A stretch of 64,000 bases of DNA from positions 27,652,001 to 27,716,000 of the forward strand of contig JBANAY010000003.1 of NCBI GenBank assembly GCA_037952775.1, read 5' to 3'. A model generated the notes under the pieces. The model saw only the letters and a program-made list of their open reading frames with translations, ran no database searches and was not told the DNA's origin. Shown one piece after another: positions 4,484 to 58,920 of this stretch. The stretch is from Clonostachys chloroleuca. Taxonomy: Eukaryota > Ascomycota > Sordariomycetes > Hypocreales > Bionectriaceae. Each line of letters opens with the position of its first letter. Positions within the stretch are counted from its first letter, which is position 1. A program made the position numbers and the translations under genes.

Positions 4484-5088
4484 GCAAATGCACAGTTTAC
4501 TCACTACTACGGAGGAGAAAGAGAATAAAGTTCAACAACAATGAAGCTGCCAGGGCCTGACAACTCAACTCAATGAATACGAATTATTCACCACTACATA
4601 TGAGCTAATATTATTTGCTGGAACCTGTCTAAGATTGGGAAGACTATCCGAAGTGGGCGAACATATCGAGACCCGGGCCATAACAAGCCGTTGAACGGAG
4701 TGAGGTGTGGTGTTAAATGACAAAACCAAAAGAGAGCAACGATCGACCAATAACCAAAGCAAAAAATGCAATCGGATCTCAAAACACATAGGAAACACAA
4801 ACCCCGAAAAATGACTTGCCAGCCAGATGACCATGTGTACGCCAGTGAAAGCTTAGGGTAGCCGACATAACCCCCCTGACGAAAGTGGGAACAACCTCCA
4901 GGTCTCCGAGTGAGCCATAATCGCCCTAACTGGGTTGCTAAGCTCTAGCAAGCGGGGAGTTGCTCGCCTGACGGTCTGCCTTGCTGGCATTGGCCTCACA
5001 CCACACAATGGCAACCACCACGGTAGTATCCCAGAGCTTCTAGGCAACGTTGTGTTGATGATCCCTAGATGGACGTCGAATTCCTCAG

Positions 5089-11561: not shown

Positions 11562-11643
11562 GCCCGGTTAGCTCAATCGGTAGAGCGTGAGACTCTTACG
11601 AGTTCATATCTCAAGGTTGCGGGTTCGACCCCCGCATCGGGCT
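11562..11643 (+). tRNA. tRNA-Lys (CTT) with a 9-nt intron
   Basis: Cloverleaf: acceptor GCCCGGT pairs with ATCGGGC, A box TTAGCTCAATCGG, anticodon stem TGAGA/TCTCA, and T arm with GGTTCGACCCC. The anticodon CTT is at 11595-11597. A 9-nt insert at 11599-11607 follows position 37, the canonical place for introns removed by tRNA-splicing endonuclease. The mature length is about 73 nt. Confidence 0.9.
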
Positions 11644-16458: not shown

Positions 16459-18615
16459 ATGTTTGAGGAACAGAGCCAAAGTAGCAGAGAGGAGTCAAAG
16501 TATGGGCGGGCGAGTGTCTTGCCGGCAACCTCTGAGCCGGCTTGGGAGATGGAATTTGCGCCCGTGGGTGAGAATCCTCCAACCGCGCCGCCAGACGAGA
16601 GTTACGACGTGAGCCGAAGGTCGAGCAGAGATTTTGTCCAGGATGGTGTTAGGGGTATGGAGGCAATATCCTTAGCTTGGACTGGCTGGTCCCTTCTGGT
16701 TCCTTATTGCAGGTACGTCTACACGACTTTGATACATAGCCAGACTGATATTTGGTCCGCTGACGGGAAAATCAGTCTTCTTCTTACGGCATTCGTTACA
16801 TCCCTTGAGGGCCAAGTCACCTCCCCATTGTTGTCATTGATGACAAAGCCCTTCCAGCAACACTCGCTGCTATCAACCACCTTTGTCGTTCGGGACATCA
16901 TATATGGTTGGTGGATTCCACTCAGTAGATGCTATAGATTTAGGACTAACCGTCTCTATTCTACAAGTTGTGGCCAAACCCCCCATAGCCAAGTTCGCCG
17001 ACGTGTTTGGCAGACTTGAAGCATTCTGTCTCACTGTCAGCCTTCTAATCATCGGTTATATTCAGCTGGCTGCCACATCAAGTGTCCAAGCTTTCGCGGC
17101 AGCACAGGTCTTCTACTCAATAGGATCCACTGGCCTTCTTCTGGTCCAGCAGATATTCATCGCCGATACGACTGACCTCCCCAACCGTGCACTATTCTCA
17201 ACCTTACCTGATCTACCCTACTTGGTGACGGTATGGATTGGCGACATCATCGGAGATCAAATAGTAGATTCTTCGGGATCTTGGCGGTGGGCATTTGGGA
17301 TGTGGACGCTCATTCTTCCCATTGCCTTTATTCCATTGGCCTATTCTCTGTTCATTAATGGGAGAAAAGCTAGTCGAATGGGCCTTGGCCCTAGGACATA
17401 CACTACTCTTCAGGGCGGCCTAACGGGAGTCCCACAGAACCTTTGGAGAGATCTCGATATTGGCGGGATCATCTTGCTGAGTTTGGGGTTATCTCTCATC
17501 CTTATTCCGTGCTCGATTGCTGGATATGTCTCGGGCGGCTGGGCAAATGGAAACCTGGTCGCCATGGTCACAATGGGAGCCATCTTCCTTGTCATCTTCC
17601 CTTTTTGGGAGTACAGCTCTCGTTTTGCGAGGAAGCGGGGAATAGAGGGCAGATTGGGCTCTTTTCTGGGTAGCCTCGCCCCCTATCCACTCATCCCTCT
17701 ACGCCTACTCAAGTCATCTACCTTCAGCGCTGGCTGCCTCCTTGCTGTTTTCTACTTTAGTAAGTGTGCTCCCACTTCAGTTTCTCATCGTATGTATTGT
17801 ATCTTTGCTTACGATGATGACCAGTGGCCTTTTACCTTTCCGTCCAGCCGCATCTATATTCCTACCTAATTGTTGTAAGAAACTTTAGTGTTTCGGATGC
17901 AAATTATGTCTTAAAAGTCTTTTACGTCACGGCTACTGTTTCTTCATTGATTGTCTCAGTCTTCATCAAAATTTCAAACCGGTACAAGTGGTTTGTTACT
18001 GGAGGCTCTTGCGTCTACCTCCTCGGAATTGGCCTCATGATCCAGCTCCGCGGCGAGCCTTCCCGATCAGCCATCGTGGCCTCGCAGATCCTCATTGGTA
18101 TCGGCGGAGGTATTCTCAATGTCCCTGCACAGCTCGGCGTGCAAGCAAGCGCCGGGCACCAAAACGTCGGCGTTGCCACGGCCATCTTCCTCTCCCTCGT
18201 TAGTGTAGGCGGTGCCATCGGCTCGGCGATTAGCACTGCTCTCTGGGAACGCTATATTCCGAGTAAGCTGCAGGACTACTTGCCTGATGGTGAAAAGAGC
18301 CGGGCTAGGATAATATACGAGGACTTCAATGAGGCTCTTGAGTATCCTGTGGGTTCGCCGGCCCGTGATGCCATAATCCGCAGCTACCGGGAGAGCATGA
18401 CGGTTCTTCTTATCATTGCTGTTGCCATTGCTGTCTTAGTGGTTGCTTGTTCTTTATTTATGGAGGATTTCAGTTTGAGCATGGTCCAACAAGGTGTAAC
18501 AGGCAGGGTTGTGGGAGGCCAAGTTGATGAGAATCAATGGAAGAAGGGTGATAAACGGTCTTACCTTCGCAAGGCATTAGATTGGATCACAGAACGGCCG
18601 GCACCGAGTGTTTGA
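16459..18615 (+). CDS. Siderophore iron transporter (SIT-type MFS)
   Basis: Four exons (16459-16712, 16776-16906, 16968-17759, 17825-18615) give 655 aa. A polar N-terminus of about 65 residues leads into roughly 14 membrane segments. Family signals are the segment VVAKPPIAKFADVFGR in helices 3-4, GSTGLLLVQQIFIADTTD, the loop SDANYVLKVFYVTATVSS and the late GGGILNVPAQLGVQASAGH. These match the fungal SIT/ARN branch, which takes up ferric siderophores across the plasma membrane. Intron 2 has an unusual donor, GTTGGT. No siderophore synthetase is nearby, so uptake of foreign siderophores is as likely as uptake of its own. Confidence 0.85.
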
Positions 18616-22536: not shown

Positions 22537-22660
22537 AATACAACCTACAACAGCCGGTATTCGCTGGTCATCACTGACCCAACTACTAATCAGCCCCTTA
22601 CTAGCTTAATATACGGAGAGCAGACGGGATCCCTCGTATTCCGGTAGTAATACTGTTTTC
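22537..22660 (-). pseudogene. Degraded 5S rRNA-like sequence
   Basis: Read on the minus strand, the 3' half resembles fungal 5S rRNA: a TTAAGCTAGTAAG box-A-like stretch, then TTAGTAGTTGGGT, TGACCAGCGAAT and CTGTTGTA near the end. The 5' half is badly diverged. It is either a RIP-decayed 5S gene (5S genes are dispersed in many ascomycetes) or the head of a 5S-derived SINE. Confidence 0.5.
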
Positions 22661-24497: not shown

Positions 24498-24499
24498 TA

Positions 24500-26074
24500 T
24501 TGTTGAGATTTACCCTATAGACTATAGGGTAGATCAAGATTACCCTATATCAATTGATCAAATGATATATAATTAGTATAGGGTAAGGGGGAATGAAATA
24601 ACTAACTTAGGGCTCTCCAAAGCTGGAAGCCCTCTGAAGCCACTGGCCTAACCTACTGTGGCTGCCCGTTGGGGCAATTGCGTTAGCGGTCACAACCGCT
24701 GTAACAGCCGCTGTGGCGTCCGTGCTAGCGATCCCGTATTGCGCTGAAGCAGCTGCATTAGCGGACTTCGTGTCCGCTGCAGCACTTGCATTAGCGGACC
24801 TCGTGTCCGCTGTACGAGAACCTTAGTACTTAGTTTAGTGAACCTCGTAACCACTATAGCAGCTGCATTAGCGGACTTCGTATCCGCTGTAGCATCTGCA
24901 TTAGCGGTCTCGTATCCCTCTGTATGAGAACCTTATAGCGGTTACGAGCCTGTATTACAGAAGGCAATGTATTATCTTCAGGGCTCTTACAGCCTGGAAA
25001 TACCTATAAGTACAGGGCTTCCTCCCTGCTAGATAGAGATTCTATAAGTCACCAATATACTCTTTTATCTACCCTACAGTCTATCTTTCTTAGCTACCCT
25101 GTAGCTGATAGAGCTTTATTTTCTCTTATAGAGCCTGTACCTTCTACTATGTTTTTTCGAACGATCCTTCTCTAGTATTTCGGAGCCTACCCTATAGGCT
25201 TTATCTACCCTAGACCTAGCTTACCCTACAGCTAGTCTACCCTATACTAGAGACCTTGACCTTTCAAAAAATATATACCTCTTAAAATAATACCGATTAA
25301 TAATTTTTGGGAGGTCAAGGTCTCTAGTATAGGGTAGACCAGCTATAGGGTAAGCTAGGTCTAGGGTAGATAAAGCCTATAGGGTAGGCTCTGAAATACT
25401 AGAGAAGGATCGTTTGAAAAAACATAGTAGAAGGTACAGGCTCTATAAGAGAAAATAAAGCTCTATCAGCTATAGGGTAGCTAAGAAAGATAGACTGTAG
25501 GGTAGGTAAAAGAGTATATTGGTGACTTGTAGAATCTCTATCTAGCAGGGAGGAAGCCCTGTACTTATAGGTGTTTCCAGGCCGTAAGGGCCCTGAAGAT
25601 AACACGTTGCCTTCTGTAATACGGGCTCATAACCGCTATAAGGTTCTCGTACAGAGGGATACGAGGCCGCTAATGCAGATGCTACAGCGGATACGAAGTC
25701 CGCTAATACAGCTGCTATAGTGGTTACGAGGTTCACTAAACTAAGTGCTAAGGTTCTCGTACGGCGGACACAAGGTCCGCTAATGCAAGCGCTGCAGCGG
25801 ATACGAATTCCGCTAATGCAGCTGCTTCAGTGCAATACGGGATCGCTAGCAAGGACGCTACAGCGGCCGTTACAGCGGTTGTGACCGCTAACGCAATTGC
25901 CCCAACGGGCAGCCATAGTGGGTTGGGCCAGTAGCTTCAGAGGGCTTCCAGCTTTGGAAAGCCCCAAGTTAGTTATTTCATTCCTCCTTACCCTATACTA
26001 ATTATATATTATTTGATCAATTGATATAGGGTAATCTTGATCTACCCTATAGTCTATAGGGTAAATCTTAACAA
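24500..26074. repeat. 1.57-kb inverted-repeat (foldback) element with TA target duplication
   Basis: Two arms of roughly 780 bp are near-perfect reverse complements around a loop of about 30 bp near 25,290. The outer ends are TTGTTGAGATTT on the left and its near complement AAATCTTAACAA on the right, flanked by TA at 24498-24499 and 26075-26076, as for Tc1/mariner-like insertions. Each arm holds many ACCCTATA motifs and several copies of a unit containing AGCGGACTTCGTGTCCGC, itself a small hairpin. Arm differences are mostly C/T and G/A. No coding sequence is supported inside, so it is non-autonomous. Confidence 0.75.
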
Positions 26075-26704
26075 TAATTACTAACCCCGATTCCTGTTCA
26101 GGAGAATAATATCCACATAGATAAGGCTACTAGCCATATTACAGGCAAGTAGTTATACGGGATTTCCCCTCCTTTCACTTCGGTGTTCGAGAGCGAGGCC
26201 TAGGAAGATAAACTAATTAGCTCGTTACAGGTATTATTAATTAGGCTGATACGAAGATTGCCCCGTTTAGAGTATCTCTCACGAGCATAGAGATCATCCT
26301 TAGTATCCAAAACAGAACTGATTAGCACTTTCATCCCAACTATTATAGCCTTCAGCAGTTGTTCTGGAATACTTTCTACAGTGTAACTAGTCATATCTCG
26401 AATAATAATTGATATATAATAGTAATTACAAGGCTGTTCGGATTCTTCCGAAATCATAGCTCCGTGGAGAAAGAATACGCAATCGTATACCTTTCAGCTT
26501 TATATCTGCTTTAAATTAATTACTTCCAGCTGCCCGCCCCCGGCCCAGGTCAAAGAAATGGGTTATAGTAACACGAGCCATGACCCAGGATGTATTCGCA
26601 CATCTGATGAGCTAGCAGCGAATGACGAGCTTGGAAGTGGATCTATCGGCGGGAGAAGAAGTACTTTGACGCACCTGGCGCTAAAAGACTAGCATTAGCC
26701 AGCA

Positions 26705-29099: not shown

Positions 29100-29224
29100 A
29101 GCAATTTGGCGCAGTGGAAGCGCGGTATGTGTGGCCCACTTCTTCCCAATCTAGAATTTCCAACTAACTCGTCCTAGCCGGGCTCATAACCCGGAGGTCC
29201 TACGATCGAAACGTAGAATTGCTA
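29100..29224 (+). tRNA. Initiator tRNA-Met (CAT) split by a 53-nt insert
   Basis: The two flanks form a perfect initiator cloverleaf. Acceptor AGCAATT pairs fully with AATTGCT, giving the eukaryotic initiator A1:U72 pair. The D stem is GCGC/GCGC. The anticodon arm is CCGGG-CTCATAA-CCCGG with CAT at 29185-29187, including the G:C pairs next to the loop that mark initiators. The T arm is CTACG-ATCGAAA-CGTAG with the initiator-type A54 and A60, and the discriminator is A. The A box (TGGCGCAGTGG) and B box (GATCGAAAC) are both intact. The only oddity is the insert 29125-29177 between positions 26 and 27. A T7 run at 29237-29243 follows. Compensated acceptor and T-stem pairs argue for a working gene. 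Confidence 0.85.
29125..29177 (+). other. Spliceosomal-type intron inside tRNA-iMet
   Basis: 53 nt with donor GTATGT, branch CTAAC at 29164-29168 and acceptor TAG at 29175-29177: every signal of a small fungal mRNA intron. It lies after G26, not at the 37/38 site used by tRNA-splicing endonuclease. Confidence 0.7.
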
Positions 29225-29236
29225 TATCTGGCTTTC

Positions 29237-29243
29237 TTTTTTT
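29237..29243 (+). terminator. Pol III terminator of tRNA-iMet
   Basis: A run of seven T 13 nt after the tRNA, with a second T6 run at 29247-29252. Confidence 0.7.
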
Positions 29244-31451: not shown

Positions 31452-33438
31452 ATGGGAGAAAAATACGAGATCACCGCTGTTCAAGGTACATTTTCCTGAA
31501 GAACCTCCACCCTTGCTCTCTTTGACAAGCTAACATGATGCAGCGGCCCCGGATCTGCAACCCACCACCAGCGATAGCGATGGGTCCGAAAAGCGAGGTT
31601 TCGAGAACATCAAGGAGGAGAATATTTTGCAAGAGCGGACAATTGGACTCTTCGGAGCAGTGTCGCTCATTGTGAACAAAATTGTTGGTGCTGGGTAGGC
31701 TCTTTTTTCTTCATTCATTCTTAGCTGAGCTAATGCCAGGATGTAGTATCTTTTCAACTCCATCTGGGATCTTGAAGACATCCGGAAGCGTTGGAATGGC
31801 CTTGATGTGCTGGATCATAGGAGCTGTTATCGCAACTTCTGGAGCGTTTGTGATGCTCGACTTTGGAACCGCCATTCCCAGGTCTGGAGGTCTTAAGAAT
31901 TATCTTGAGAGAGCATTCCACCCTCGGTTACTGCAAACATGCATCTACGCCTTCTACTGTGTCTTCCTCCGTAAGTCATTTTTGACCTACTTTTATATTC
32001 TAACCCCATGCACTTTCGGCTCAGCATCTTAACTGGATAATAGAGGTGTCGGCTAGTAATGCGATCACATTTGCTTCTTACATTCTTGTCGCTGCCGGAA
32101 GCGAAGAGACAACATGGAAACTTCGTGGAATCTCAATTGCTGGCGCAGCCTTCTCTGTCGGGATTCACATTGTTGCCCCCAAGTACGGGAGATGGCTACA
32201 GGATTTACTCTCCGCTGTCAAGCTTTTCACGCTCCTCTTCATCTGCTGCTGCGGCTTTGCAGCTTTGGCTGGACATCTCAAGATCGAAAAGCCCAATAAC
32301 TTCACCAATGCCTTCGAAGGCACATCGAATAGCGGCTATAACATTGGAACGTCGATCTTGAATGTTATTTTCTCGTATAGTGGCTATGATAACCTTAACA
32401 CGGTATGTCTGTTTACAGCGAACTAAATAGTCAATTCATCACCGTGGCGGATTGCTGACATTGCTGTAGGTCTTATCAGAAGTCAAAAATCCGGAAAAGA
32501 CTCTGAAGAGAGCGCTGCCATTGTCCATGATTTCTCTCACTATTCTCTACATGTTGGCCAATGTTGCATATGTAAGTTCTTGCACTTTCAAATGTTCATC
32601 AAATTTGACTAACGCCATAATGCCAAGTTCGCTGGTGTCCCACGAGACGAATTTATCGCAGCAAAAGTCACTGTCGCAGCCAGCCTGTTCAAGAACCTTT
32701 TCGGCCAGTCTGCAGCAAGCAAGGCCATGCCAGCATTAGTGGCTCTCTCTGCTCTTGGACATTTACTCGGAATCGCTTTCACGATCCGTATGTCTTTCAA
32801 GCAATCAAGTTTCTGAGTGAAAGCTAATGATGTTATCAGCACGAGTTATTCAGGAATTAGCAAAGGACGGGATTTTGCCATTCTCCAACCTGTTCATGCA
32901 GAACAAACCTTTTAGAACTCCGATCTGGGCTCTTCTTCTTCACTTGGGCGTAACGATCATCTTCATCTGCGCTCCTCCCGCCGGTGACGCGTTTTCGTTC
33001 ATCGTGAGCTTGTCGACCTACCCAGGCGTGGTAATTTTGACGGCTATTACGGTTGGCCTAGTCAAGCTTCGTCTGTCCCCGAAGGAGAACTTCGTATCTC
33101 CCCAACGAGCTCCATGGGCTGTTGTTATCGTGTACTTGGCAGCGAACATAGTGAGTTTGTTCCACAAAGAAACTATATCCATAATGTGTTCTATATCTTA
33201 CAATTTCTTTCTTTAGTTTTTATTGGTCATGCCCTTTGTTCGGCCGCCTAATGGAAAGGGTAACACTTACCTTCCGTATTGGCTATCTTCTGTCGTCCCC
33301 CTTGGTATTCTATCCCTAGGAATTATCTACTATGTGCTCCGATGGGTGGTTTTCCCCAAGGTATTCCGTTACCGGATCGAAGAGGTTCAGTTGGAGCTCA
33401 GCGATGGATCAAAGATCACTAGATTCAAGAGAGTGTAA
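31452..33438 (+). CDS. Amino-acid permease, MUP1-like (APC/LAT type)
   Basis: Eight exons: 31452-31485, 31544-31694, 31747-31970, 32044-32402, 32470-32571, 32628-32787, 32840-33150 and 33217-33438. They total 1563 nt and 520 aa, with consistent phases throughout. Signature segments are TIGLFGAVSLIVNKIVGAG followed by IFSTPSGILKTSGSVG in helix 1, FSYSGYDNLNTV in helix 6, and FAGVPRDEF. These match the fungal high-affinity methionine permease (MUP1) branch of the APC superfamily, which imports methionine or related amino acids over the plasma membrane; the exact substrate is inferred. Exon 1 encodes only 11 residues. The acceptor of intron 2 is the second of two AG sites (31745-31746); using the first would hit a stop. 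Confidence 0.85.
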
Positions 33439-48120: not shown

Positions 48121-50303
48121 TCAGCACACACCCTCTGGCAAGTCGAAATTGTCGACACGAGGGTCAGCAGTGACCGCACCGGCACCCAACCCCCTCTTTG
48201 CGAAGCCTTTCCAAATCTCACATCTATTTCCTCCGCCGGTGAGTGCAACATCAGCATCAATTATCGCGTCTCGCGCTTGAACCATAGTTGGGTTGCAAGG
48301 CTGGCTGAACACGGTGATCTTGGTCAGAATATTTTGTGTATGAGAACGAGCTTCTTCAGGGACGGGATCTCACATTGCGAAAGCATCAATCAGAAGTTTC
48401 AGCATCAGAAACTTTCCATCGGTCGGGACACCGTTGACTAGATCTGGCCGCGAATTGTCATTTTTGCCATGCTTGTTGATGAGGTTCCATAGCGATTCGT
48501 ATAGCATCGTAGCCCAAACCGTTCCAACTTCGTGTACCTTCGTGAGACCGTTGGCCGACGCATATGTGAATTCGTTTACGTCCATATTGGTAGAGTACAT
48601 CCTCAATCGCGCTGTTGGGGGATCTGTCTGGTTAAGTGACCAAGCCGCAAATCCATAAGTGGCGGTATCAGAAGTGTCACTTGGCTTGATTGTAAGCGCT
48701 GCAGCGAAGAGATCACTCCATCCTTCCGCCATACCGTCAGCTTCCCAGGCATTAAGGCAACCTGTGGTGCTCGCTCCACCAGTGAGGCGATCCGACACTG
48801 TGAGCAGTCCAGGTCAGCTTTACGCTCAAGAAAGTCTTAACAGTCATTCAATAAGTACTTACTCCCATGAGTGTATTCATGAATAATAAATCCGTTATCA
48901 AATGCGCTATCTCTTTCTGGATCGGTGTGGTTGAAGAGGTACATCGTGAGTATTCCTCGACCACCATCAGCCGATTGCTGGAATTTTCCGTTGTTCTTCC
49001 CTCCAGCTATAGAGTTTAGTATGTTTTAAGATATGCAAAACATGAAGAAATGTTAGAAATTACTCACCTGTTTGCAAGTTGACCTGGACTGGATCATTTC
49101 CCCTTCCGCCTTCACCATTGTTGTCTTTCTGGTAGTTTCCAGCGGCTGGTGTGAAGCCCAACAGATAATACAGGTCATGGAGCATGTTTGTGGTGTAAAA
49201 TGCCTGCGTGACTGCAGCCTCATAAGAATCGTCTGGAGTTCTGGCATCAGGTGTATAAGGGAAAATAAAGGATTCATTTGGACTCCGAGCCTCTTTGAAG
49301 TTTCCCGGTATCACTGGTACGGCCCCGGCCATAACATTGTTGCCTTCTGTGTCGTACATCCCACTGACAGTATTTTTGGGATCGTGCCAGCCAAATGGCG
49401 AGGCCGTTGAGTCCTGCGGGTTGTCAACAGTTGTGCGCTCCCCCTCGCGGGGATCATTGAGTCCAAAGGGGCTGAAGCTGTCAGTGATTGTAATGCCTTG
49501 GCGAGGGAAGTAATTACTTACTAAACTTCATATGACCAGTAATCAACATGGTCAAGAACAGCAACTACTTCCGAAGCGCCAGCATCGATATCGACATAGG
49601 ATGAAAAGGATGTGTCCTTCACAATTGTCTGAATCTTCCATGCGAGCACCAATTTACCCTCCGGCTTGACTAAATACACCTGCTTAGCGGCAGGGTCTGT
49701 TTCAGCACCTTCCACATTCTTGATGAGATAGCTTTCTTGTTCGTCAGAAACTGATTCGGTAACTGCATTATTTGGGACCTGAATTGGTAACTTCAGGGTC
49801 TCGCGAACGGCCTCCAGGGCCCCAACGGGATCTAGAGTCAGTCGTCGACTCTTCGGAGACTCTTTTGGAAGGTCTCCTGCAAAGAGAGAGTTTCCATATG
49901 AAAATACGTTTCCTTCTCTGTCGATCTGGCGAGGAAATTAGTCTGAATCCCATCCTTGAAGGGGTAGATCTGGACCAAGCTTGCCGCGTACATTGACATT
50001 TAAGATGGCATTGTCGATGTCTACATCGTGGACGGTTTGCTGGAGGAACACATGACTGAGGCCATTTGCTCCCAGATAGCTATCGTCTTTTACTCGAAAT
50101 GTCGCATTGGGGGCGATGCTCTTGATCAAGTCGATGGCCGTTCCCACAGAGTCACCCCGTCTGAGCAGCTTGATTCTTGAATTGCCTGCTACATCAGATG
50201 ACTTGGTATAACTCGCTAAAGCCTTCACTCGCAAAGCATCAAGGTCCACTGCTCTCACCGAAGCAGCGATACCTATAGTAGCCAGAAGACAGTGAAACCG
50301 CAT
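48121..50303 (-). CDS. Fungalysin, secreted M36 metalloprotease
   Basis: Six minus-strand exons (49992-50303, 49522-49925, 49068-49471, 48863-49006, 48374-48797, 48121-48304) give 623 aa, the usual length. A signal peptide ([18 protein letters not shown]) and a FTP-like propeptide precede the mature enzyme, which has [15 protein letters not shown] near its start. The zinc site is IIHEYTHG (HExxH) with the downstream [14 protein letters not shown] supplying the third ligand. Late segments LQPCNPT-like (here [13 protein letters not shown]) and [18 protein letters not shown] are conserved. It degrades extracellular protein and in some species is a virulence or allergen factor. Introns are 50-69 bp and all joins are in phase. 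The HExxH codons sit a few bases from the intron 4 donor. Confidence 0.92.
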
Positions 50304-58361: not shown

Positions 58362-58693
58362 GATCTGTGTAGACTGCATATAACGTAGCGATATCAATTT
58401 GAACCTTGCTTGACCTGAAACTCGACGGGCCAGAATTTACCTATTCGCAACGGCAAGAGAACTGACCGCACAAAACCCAACTCCAAACCACCCAAGACGT
58501 GTGTTCTCATCCTGGGTCTCCGCCTTTGCCTTCCTTGCCATCAGTCACGAGTGCTATTGACGGCTTTGCCCTTGGATGTTCTTGTCCTCGACGATGTGCC
58601 TCTATTCTTCCAAGACAGCTCCAAATAACCCGCGTCTTCTTCACCATGACGGCAAGCCGCCAAAAGCAATGAAAATGAGCTCAGTGGTTCGCG
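58362..58693. other. Intergenic between convergent transcripts
   Basis: 3' flanks of the membrane protein gene and U2 snRNA; nothing else seen. Confidence 0.4.
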
Positions 58694-58872
58694 TCACCTG
58701 GAGGCAGTGTAATACCAGGGACACTGTGGGCGGAATCATGTGCAAGCACAGAGGAAGCCGCCCGAAGACCAAAAATAGGAATAATCACGATTGATCTCCT
58801 TAGAGATCTTTCAGAGATTAAACTGAAAAGAACAGATACTACACTTGATCTAAGCCAAAAGGCAAAGAGAGC
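58694..58872 (-). ncRNA. U2 spliceosomal snRNA
   Basis: Minus strand starts near 58872 with CTCTTTGCCTTTTGGCTTAG, then ATCAAGTGTAGTATCTGTTC, which contains the GTAGTA branch-site recognition sequence, and TTTTCAGTTTAATCTCTGA. An Sm site (TATTTTTGG) lies at about 58771-58779. A GGGCGG...CCGCCC stem and a final CCTGG...CCAGG hairpin follow. U2 pairs with intron branch sites, such as the CTAAC motifs of this window. Ends are placed by structure and may be off by a few bases. Confidence 0.85.
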
Positions 58873-58920
58873 TAAAGAAGAAAGAAGAAAACAGACAAAA
58901 GCTGGGCGAGGTCGGCGGAC

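Follow-up and report, generated by a model that had tools for sequence, protein, structure and literature searches.

Tani and Ohshima is reportedly the reference for the messenger RNA (mRNA)-type intron in U6, and Bhattacharya (2000) and Takahashi (1993) are said to be those for spliceosomal introns in ascomycete ribosomal DNA (rDNA) and in the Rhodotorula U2 gene; these last two hosts are neither transfer RNA (tRNA) genes nor genes of RNA polymerase III (Pol III). According to the accessible part of one source, spliceosomal introns sometimes interrupt noncoding RNA genes, with rDNA and U2 cited as cases (PMC2586383). Fission-yeast U6 and ascomycete rDNA are the nearest precedents for the gene described here, an initiator tRNA-Met gene at positions 29100 to 29224 of a 64,000-nucleotide (nt) stretch of Clonostachys chloroleuca DNA (GenBank assembly GCA_037952775.1, contig JBANAY010000003.1, positions 27,652,001 to 27,716,000 of the forward strand; hereafter, the window). 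An earlier note on this DNA, made from the letters alone, proposed that a spliceosomal intron interrupts the gene, and that proposal is supported by the motifs, by their spacing, and by their recurrence at a single site in one tRNA-Trp gene and four initiator genes out of five. We therefore read the inserts, with a probability of about 0.88, as U2-type spliceosomal introns in initiator tRNA genes transcribed by Pol III.

Like U6 of Schizosaccharomyces pombe and others, the window gene would give rise to an essential Pol III RNA interrupted by a short intron of the mRNA type; in U6 the intron is removed by splicing (PMC10484740, in its available text), and here the same removal is what we infer. 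The available text also describes how U6 differs: it is itself a spliceosomal RNA, and its intron lies near the catalytic bases and is thought to stem from reverse splicing (PMC10484740), whereas the host here is a tRNA, with several gene copies and two tRNA kinds involved. Eukaryotic tRNA introns away from position 37/38 are known from Cyanidioschyzon merolae and from nucleomorphs, but the accessible portion of the source ties those to the bulge-helix-bulge, gives many nucleomorph ones no defined motif, and makes no mention of mRNA splice signals (PMC3978253). With the canonical nuclear tRNA introns at 37/38, the insert shares its place in a nuclear tRNA gene between the A and B boxes; it differs from them in position, size, signals, and presumably enzyme. 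In the open-licence literature searched, outside which most subscription papers lie, we saw no tRNA gene reported to carry a spliceosomal intron, and a description may exist elsewhere.

Anatomy of the Split Initiator Gene

The anatomy of the gene can be read directly from the DNA, and all its features lie on the forward (+) strand. Exon 1 (29100..29124), the same in all five initiator genes, comprises the 5' strand of the acceptor stem and the D arm through G26, and it contains the A box TGGCGCAGTGGA (29107..29118), an internal Pol III promoter element. Exon 2 (29178..29224) comprises, by sequence and fold, the anticodon arm (CAT), the variable loop, the T arm with its AUCGAAA loop, and the 3' strand of the acceptor stem, with the exon proper ending at 29223 and A73 standing at 29224. 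The B box GATCGAAAC lies at 29204..29212; both boxes were assigned from the sequence and from general knowledge of tRNA genes. Downstream is a T7 run (29237..29243), probably the Pol III terminator, within a trailer that is common to an intronless copy of the gene.

The insert that the earlier note had placed between G26 and C27 is confirmed, by copy comparison and pattern scan, as 53 nt at 29125..29177. It opens with the 5' splice site GTATGT (29125..29130), carries the branch-point motif CTAAC (29164..29168), and closes with the 3' splice site TAG (29175..29177). The DNA by itself leaves the boundary uncertain by one G, and the GT-AG register was chosen.

Initiator tRNA-Met has as its marks a CAT anticodon, an A1:U72 pair, an anticodon stem with GGG:CCC, and a T loop with A54 and A60. 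The joined window exons form a 72-nt initiator tRNA-Met that is the same as the intact intronless copy (L039:4890-4961), and by its sequence and the fold of that copy the joined form carries every one of these marks. The initiator cloverleaf claimed for the flanks of the insert holds, in that the minimum-energy fold of the intact copy is a cloverleaf that shows the A1:U72 pair, an anticodon stem with GGG:CCC, and the T loop AUCGAAA. The stability of this fold is ordinary (z -1.31; 20 of 200 shuffles fold equally well), and the centroid structure is not the cloverleaf.

It had also been expected that standard tRNA finders would miss the gene, and indeed neither ARAGORN nor Rfam reported the window copy. 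ARAGORN found no gene at the two other loci given to it (L002, with both copies from contig C1, and L004), all of them split copies, and it calls the intronless copy tRNA-Met.

Initiator Gene Copies in the Genome

The genome searched comprises 59.4 Mb in four contigs; a tRNA family search scored 63 of 1737 candidates, and the resulting tRNA set is incomplete. The 5' exon core TGGCGCAGYGGAAGCG has five exact matches, all of them initiator tRNA-Met genes. When up to two mismatches are allowed, there are 110 matches versus 76 for the reversed control, and among the one-mismatch matches listed four are tRNA-Trp genes. Inserts of 53, 51, 53, and 54 nt occupy the identical site in four initiator genes, and the fifth gene, within G000:C3:16104287-16104365, exactly lacks one. 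Across all five genes, 71 exon bases and A73 are identical, the A and B boxes are present, and a T run of at least seven lies within about 20 nt downstream. A DNA search with the window gene, in which low-complexity and very common words were skipped, returned the five initiator loci only, which argues against the insert being a dispersed repeat.

The split copies might be silent, or might yield dead precursors, leaving the intronless gene alone to supply initiator tRNA; that gene is intact, has good boxes and a good terminator, and is the one called by ARAGORN. We consider this unlikely. Dead copies should decay, yet over 71 nt the exons of the split copies are the same as the intact gene though most introns and flanks have diverged, and the splice signals and T runs are kept in all four. 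Gene conversion could account for the likeness of the exons but would hardly preserve splice signals within introns that have diverged. The earlier note would have taken several intact intronless initiator genes elsewhere, with this copy silent, as telling against its reading; one intact intronless gene was found, not several, and this bears on that reading only in part. Because the intronless copy encodes the same mature RNA, neither mature tRNA nor a joined junction would alone be proof of splicing; the 3' trailers do differ between the split copies.

A Second tRNA Kind

One of the four tRNA-Trp(CCA) genes (L047:1494-1618, from G000:C1:5791657) is also split at tRNA position 26/27, after GCGCG, by a 53-nt insert of the form GTATGT...CTAAC...TAG. 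The other three are intronless; C1:5790713-5790788 is identical to the split gene over both exons, and the remaining two differ slightly (98% match to exon 2). The split gene has a T5 run only, about 30 nt downstream. Its 5' end is duplicated just upstream (GGAGCTTTGGAGCTTTGG).

Scans with A-box patterns covered the 26/27 site genome-wide. The pattern of an A box, 7 nt, and GTRNGT has 24 matches, and the five in which the D stem pairs fully and both CTAAC and a B box are present prove to be the four initiator genes and the Trp gene; the other 19 lack a B box. Two further ungapped A-box patterns, with other D-loop lengths, gave 26 and 19 matches, none with a four-pair D stem (three of the four pairs are present in 6 and 3 of them, respectively). 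Reversed-pattern controls exceeded the matches every time (40 vs 24, 60 vs 26, and 50 vs 19), so the matches without tRNA features are at chance level.

Among other RNA genes, U6 has two genome matches over cut-off, end to end on the model and without an insert, and the 45 genome matches to 5S rRNA (43 over cut-off) span the whole model with no large insert. Of the first-look candidates, these searches scored 47 out of 3816 and 47 out of 2918, respectively. The window itself has a U2 small nuclear RNA match at 58683-58875 (-), which covers the whole model without an intron; this match and the two for U6 count in favour of the spliceosomal reading.

What the Inserts Share

The four initiator inserts begin with GTATGT, GTACGT, GTATGT, and GTAAGT (GTANGT), and in each CTAAC is followed by 9-10 nt ending in TAG or CAG. 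With the Trp insert included, all five start with GTRNGT and end with YAG, in a register chosen within the one-base ambiguity, and all five have CTAAC near the 3' end, the branch A being 10-11 nt from the end of the intron. Insert interiors are another matter: for four of the six initiator pairs, the alignment is no better than that of shuffles (0.27-0.46 of 500 score as well), with C1a-C3b marginal (0.098) and C1b-C3b related (0.002). Most interiors have thus diverged while the exons are identical; what has been kept is therefore the splice sites and the branch point.

A hand estimate that takes the four bases as equally frequent puts the chance of GTRNGT, a suitably spaced CTAAC, and AG in one random insert at about 5e-7, and a chance match is ruled out by four copies at one site that differ inside yet keep GTANGT, CTAAC, and YAG. 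A self-splicing group I or II intron was also rejected, since 51-54 nt is too short for a catalytic core of some hundreds of bases; an Rfam scan of the window gave no group I or II intron match.

Another reading would make the insert an ectopic intron of the kind found in Cyanidioschyzon and archaea, where the tRNA splicing endonuclease acts on a bulge-helix-bulge. Such introns do occur in some eukaryotes, by the available text of PMC3978253, and two of the five inserts could pair with the exon-1 D loop in a 4-base helix (the scan was a simple 4-base one and used the initiator exon 1 for the Trp insert too). We regard this as extremely improbable. Three inserts, including that of the window, have no such helix, and in the other two it lies at least 5 bases before the end of the exon; there is thus no junction helix common to the copies. 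That pathway has no use for GTANGT and CTAAC, which are conserved here. The inserts sit at 26/27 and not at 37/38, as the earlier note had pointed out, and the window's own tRNA-Val gene (11562-11643; 82 nt) has by eye a short intron that is apparently of the canonical 37/38 kind.

Comparison with mRNA Introns

The window was scanned for mRNA-like introns of the form GTRNGT..CTRAC..YAG, with bounds of 45-75 nt set by us. There were 17 matches, as compared with 4.05 +/- 1.83 (maximum 9) in 20 Markov simulations. Under these bounds, which partly build in the match in size, the tRNA introns measure 51-54 nt and the mRNA-like candidates 48-73 nt. The commonest 5' site is GTAAGT (seven matches, with GTATGT in three), and the branch motif is CTGAC in nine and CTAAC in eight. 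Matches 16713-16775, 32403-32469, and 49472-49521 (63, 67, and 50 nt) are strongly supported, with joined open frames reached by at most 1.3% of random places, and three more stand at 0.057-0.066 in the same test. It had been claimed that the insert bears the exact signals of the mRNA introns of the window; the same motifs do occur there, but the claim is loosely worded, GTAAGT being commoner and the best-supported introns using CTGAC.

The tRNA insert has no coding support, the frame across its junction running for 22 codons and being matched by 0.438 of random places, and an intron inside a protein gene was rejected on this ground. The same figure bears on the idea that the split genes are transcribed by RNA polymerase II (Pol II) within longer RNAs and spliced there. 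Their splice signals are those of Pol II transcripts; however, the window copy is in no clear open frame across the junction, and each of the five initiator genes has both boxes, A and B, as well as a T run, which makes this route very unlikely.

Proposed Processing and What Weighs on It

Judging by these signals, Pol III would transcribe the window gene by means of its A and B boxes, ending at the T run, and the spliceosome would recognise GTATGT, CTAAC, and TAG and join G26 to C27. The tRNA would then be completed by RNase P, 3' trimming, CCA addition, and modification, presumably in that order. Four initiator genes out of five, and one tRNA-Trp gene out of four, would need this route, so that production of initiator tRNA probably depends on the mRNA splicing machinery.

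Several points weigh against this interpretation. The one intact intronless gene could in principle supply the tRNA. When three overlapping duplicates and the tRNA insert are set aside, the 17 mRNA-like matches come down to 13 distinct ones; strong coding support is found in only three of the 17, and those three use CTGAC, not CTAAC. Nothing special is seen in the fold predicted for the window precursor before splicing (z -0.51), and a search for relatives, with two patterns each against GTDB genomes and IMG/VR (both non-fungal collections), gave no match. Exon 1 is very short, and transcripts of this kind have no mRNA cap. Fission-yeast U6 offsets the objection from cap and exon, since a Pol III RNA can be spliced there, according to the available text of PMC10484740.

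Intron History and a Possible Family

The intronless copy and the window copy have about 30 nt of 3' trailer in common (blastn 94.8% over 77 columns, 46 nt of them exon; trailer score 19 vs a shuffled mean of 4.4, with 0 of 300 shuffles), and their 5' flanks show no significant likeness (0.17). Uncorrected values also indicate trailer likeness among C1a, C1b, and C3b (0.000-0.013) and between C1b and the intronless copy (0.030), and leader likeness for C1a-C1b (0.000), C1b-C3b (0.017), and C1a with the intronless copy (0.023). Several pairs thus show flank likeness, and short flank scores alone are therefore weak. The simplest reading of these sequences is that the intronless copy would have lost its intron through a spliced precursor copied back into DNA, a loss that, if true, would itself record splicing; alternatively, two independent intron gains may account for the pair. 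No convincing target-site duplication was found around the intronless copy. A 13-nt perfect inverted repeat flanks this gene (L039:4854-4866 and 4966-4978), its right arm lying in the trailer and T run.

The motif GAWCCC stands just before CTAAC in four of the five tRNA introns (both copies in L037, L038, and L047, but not that of the window) and in none of the 13 distinct mRNA-like introns. It was noticed post hoc and, as only a lead, may point to kinship of the initiator and Trp introns. The interior of the Trp insert scores above shuffles with two initiator introns (0.002 and 0.024) and stands at 0.08 and 0.75 with the others, all uncorrected. We offer as a tentative idea, one that we doubt more than we believe, that the tRNA introns form one family, which would have spread between tRNA kinds at a homologous site by reverse splicing into the junction of D arm and anticodon stem and been lost by copying of spliced pre-tRNA into DNA; initiator supply, and hence start-codon selection, would then be tied to spliceosome activity.

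Other Features of the Window and Genome

A palindrome at 24498-26076, with 777-nt arms that are 95% complementary and 25 nt apart, lies about 3 kb from the tRNA gene. A divergent 5S rRNA match at 22542-22660 (-) scores 40.5 bits and is perhaps a 5S pseudogene; 38 of the 45 genome 5S matches listed score 78.9-93.5 bits, and this weak window match is absent from that list. A heterokaryon-incompatibility (HET) domain is above the Pfam cut-off in one of the seven window open reading frames scanned, and a second frame has a partial match below it; the genome reads as that of a Pezizomycotina ascomycete. Elsewhere, G000:C3:9147943-9162838 holds a tRNA cluster, including Ile(GAT), Asn, Val, Phe, and Leu(TAA), that resembles mitochondrial DNA inside a large contig.

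Significance

If our interpretation is true, an essential RNA of translation, made by Pol III, has the spliceosome on its pathway, and spliceosomal introns are able to enter tRNA genes. The interpretation would also account for initiator genes being overlooked by a standard tRNA finder. Splicing capacity could be coupled to translation initiation in this fungus, and its genome, in which a single nucleus contains genes for the same RNA with and without an intron, would offer a natural system for intron gain and loss.
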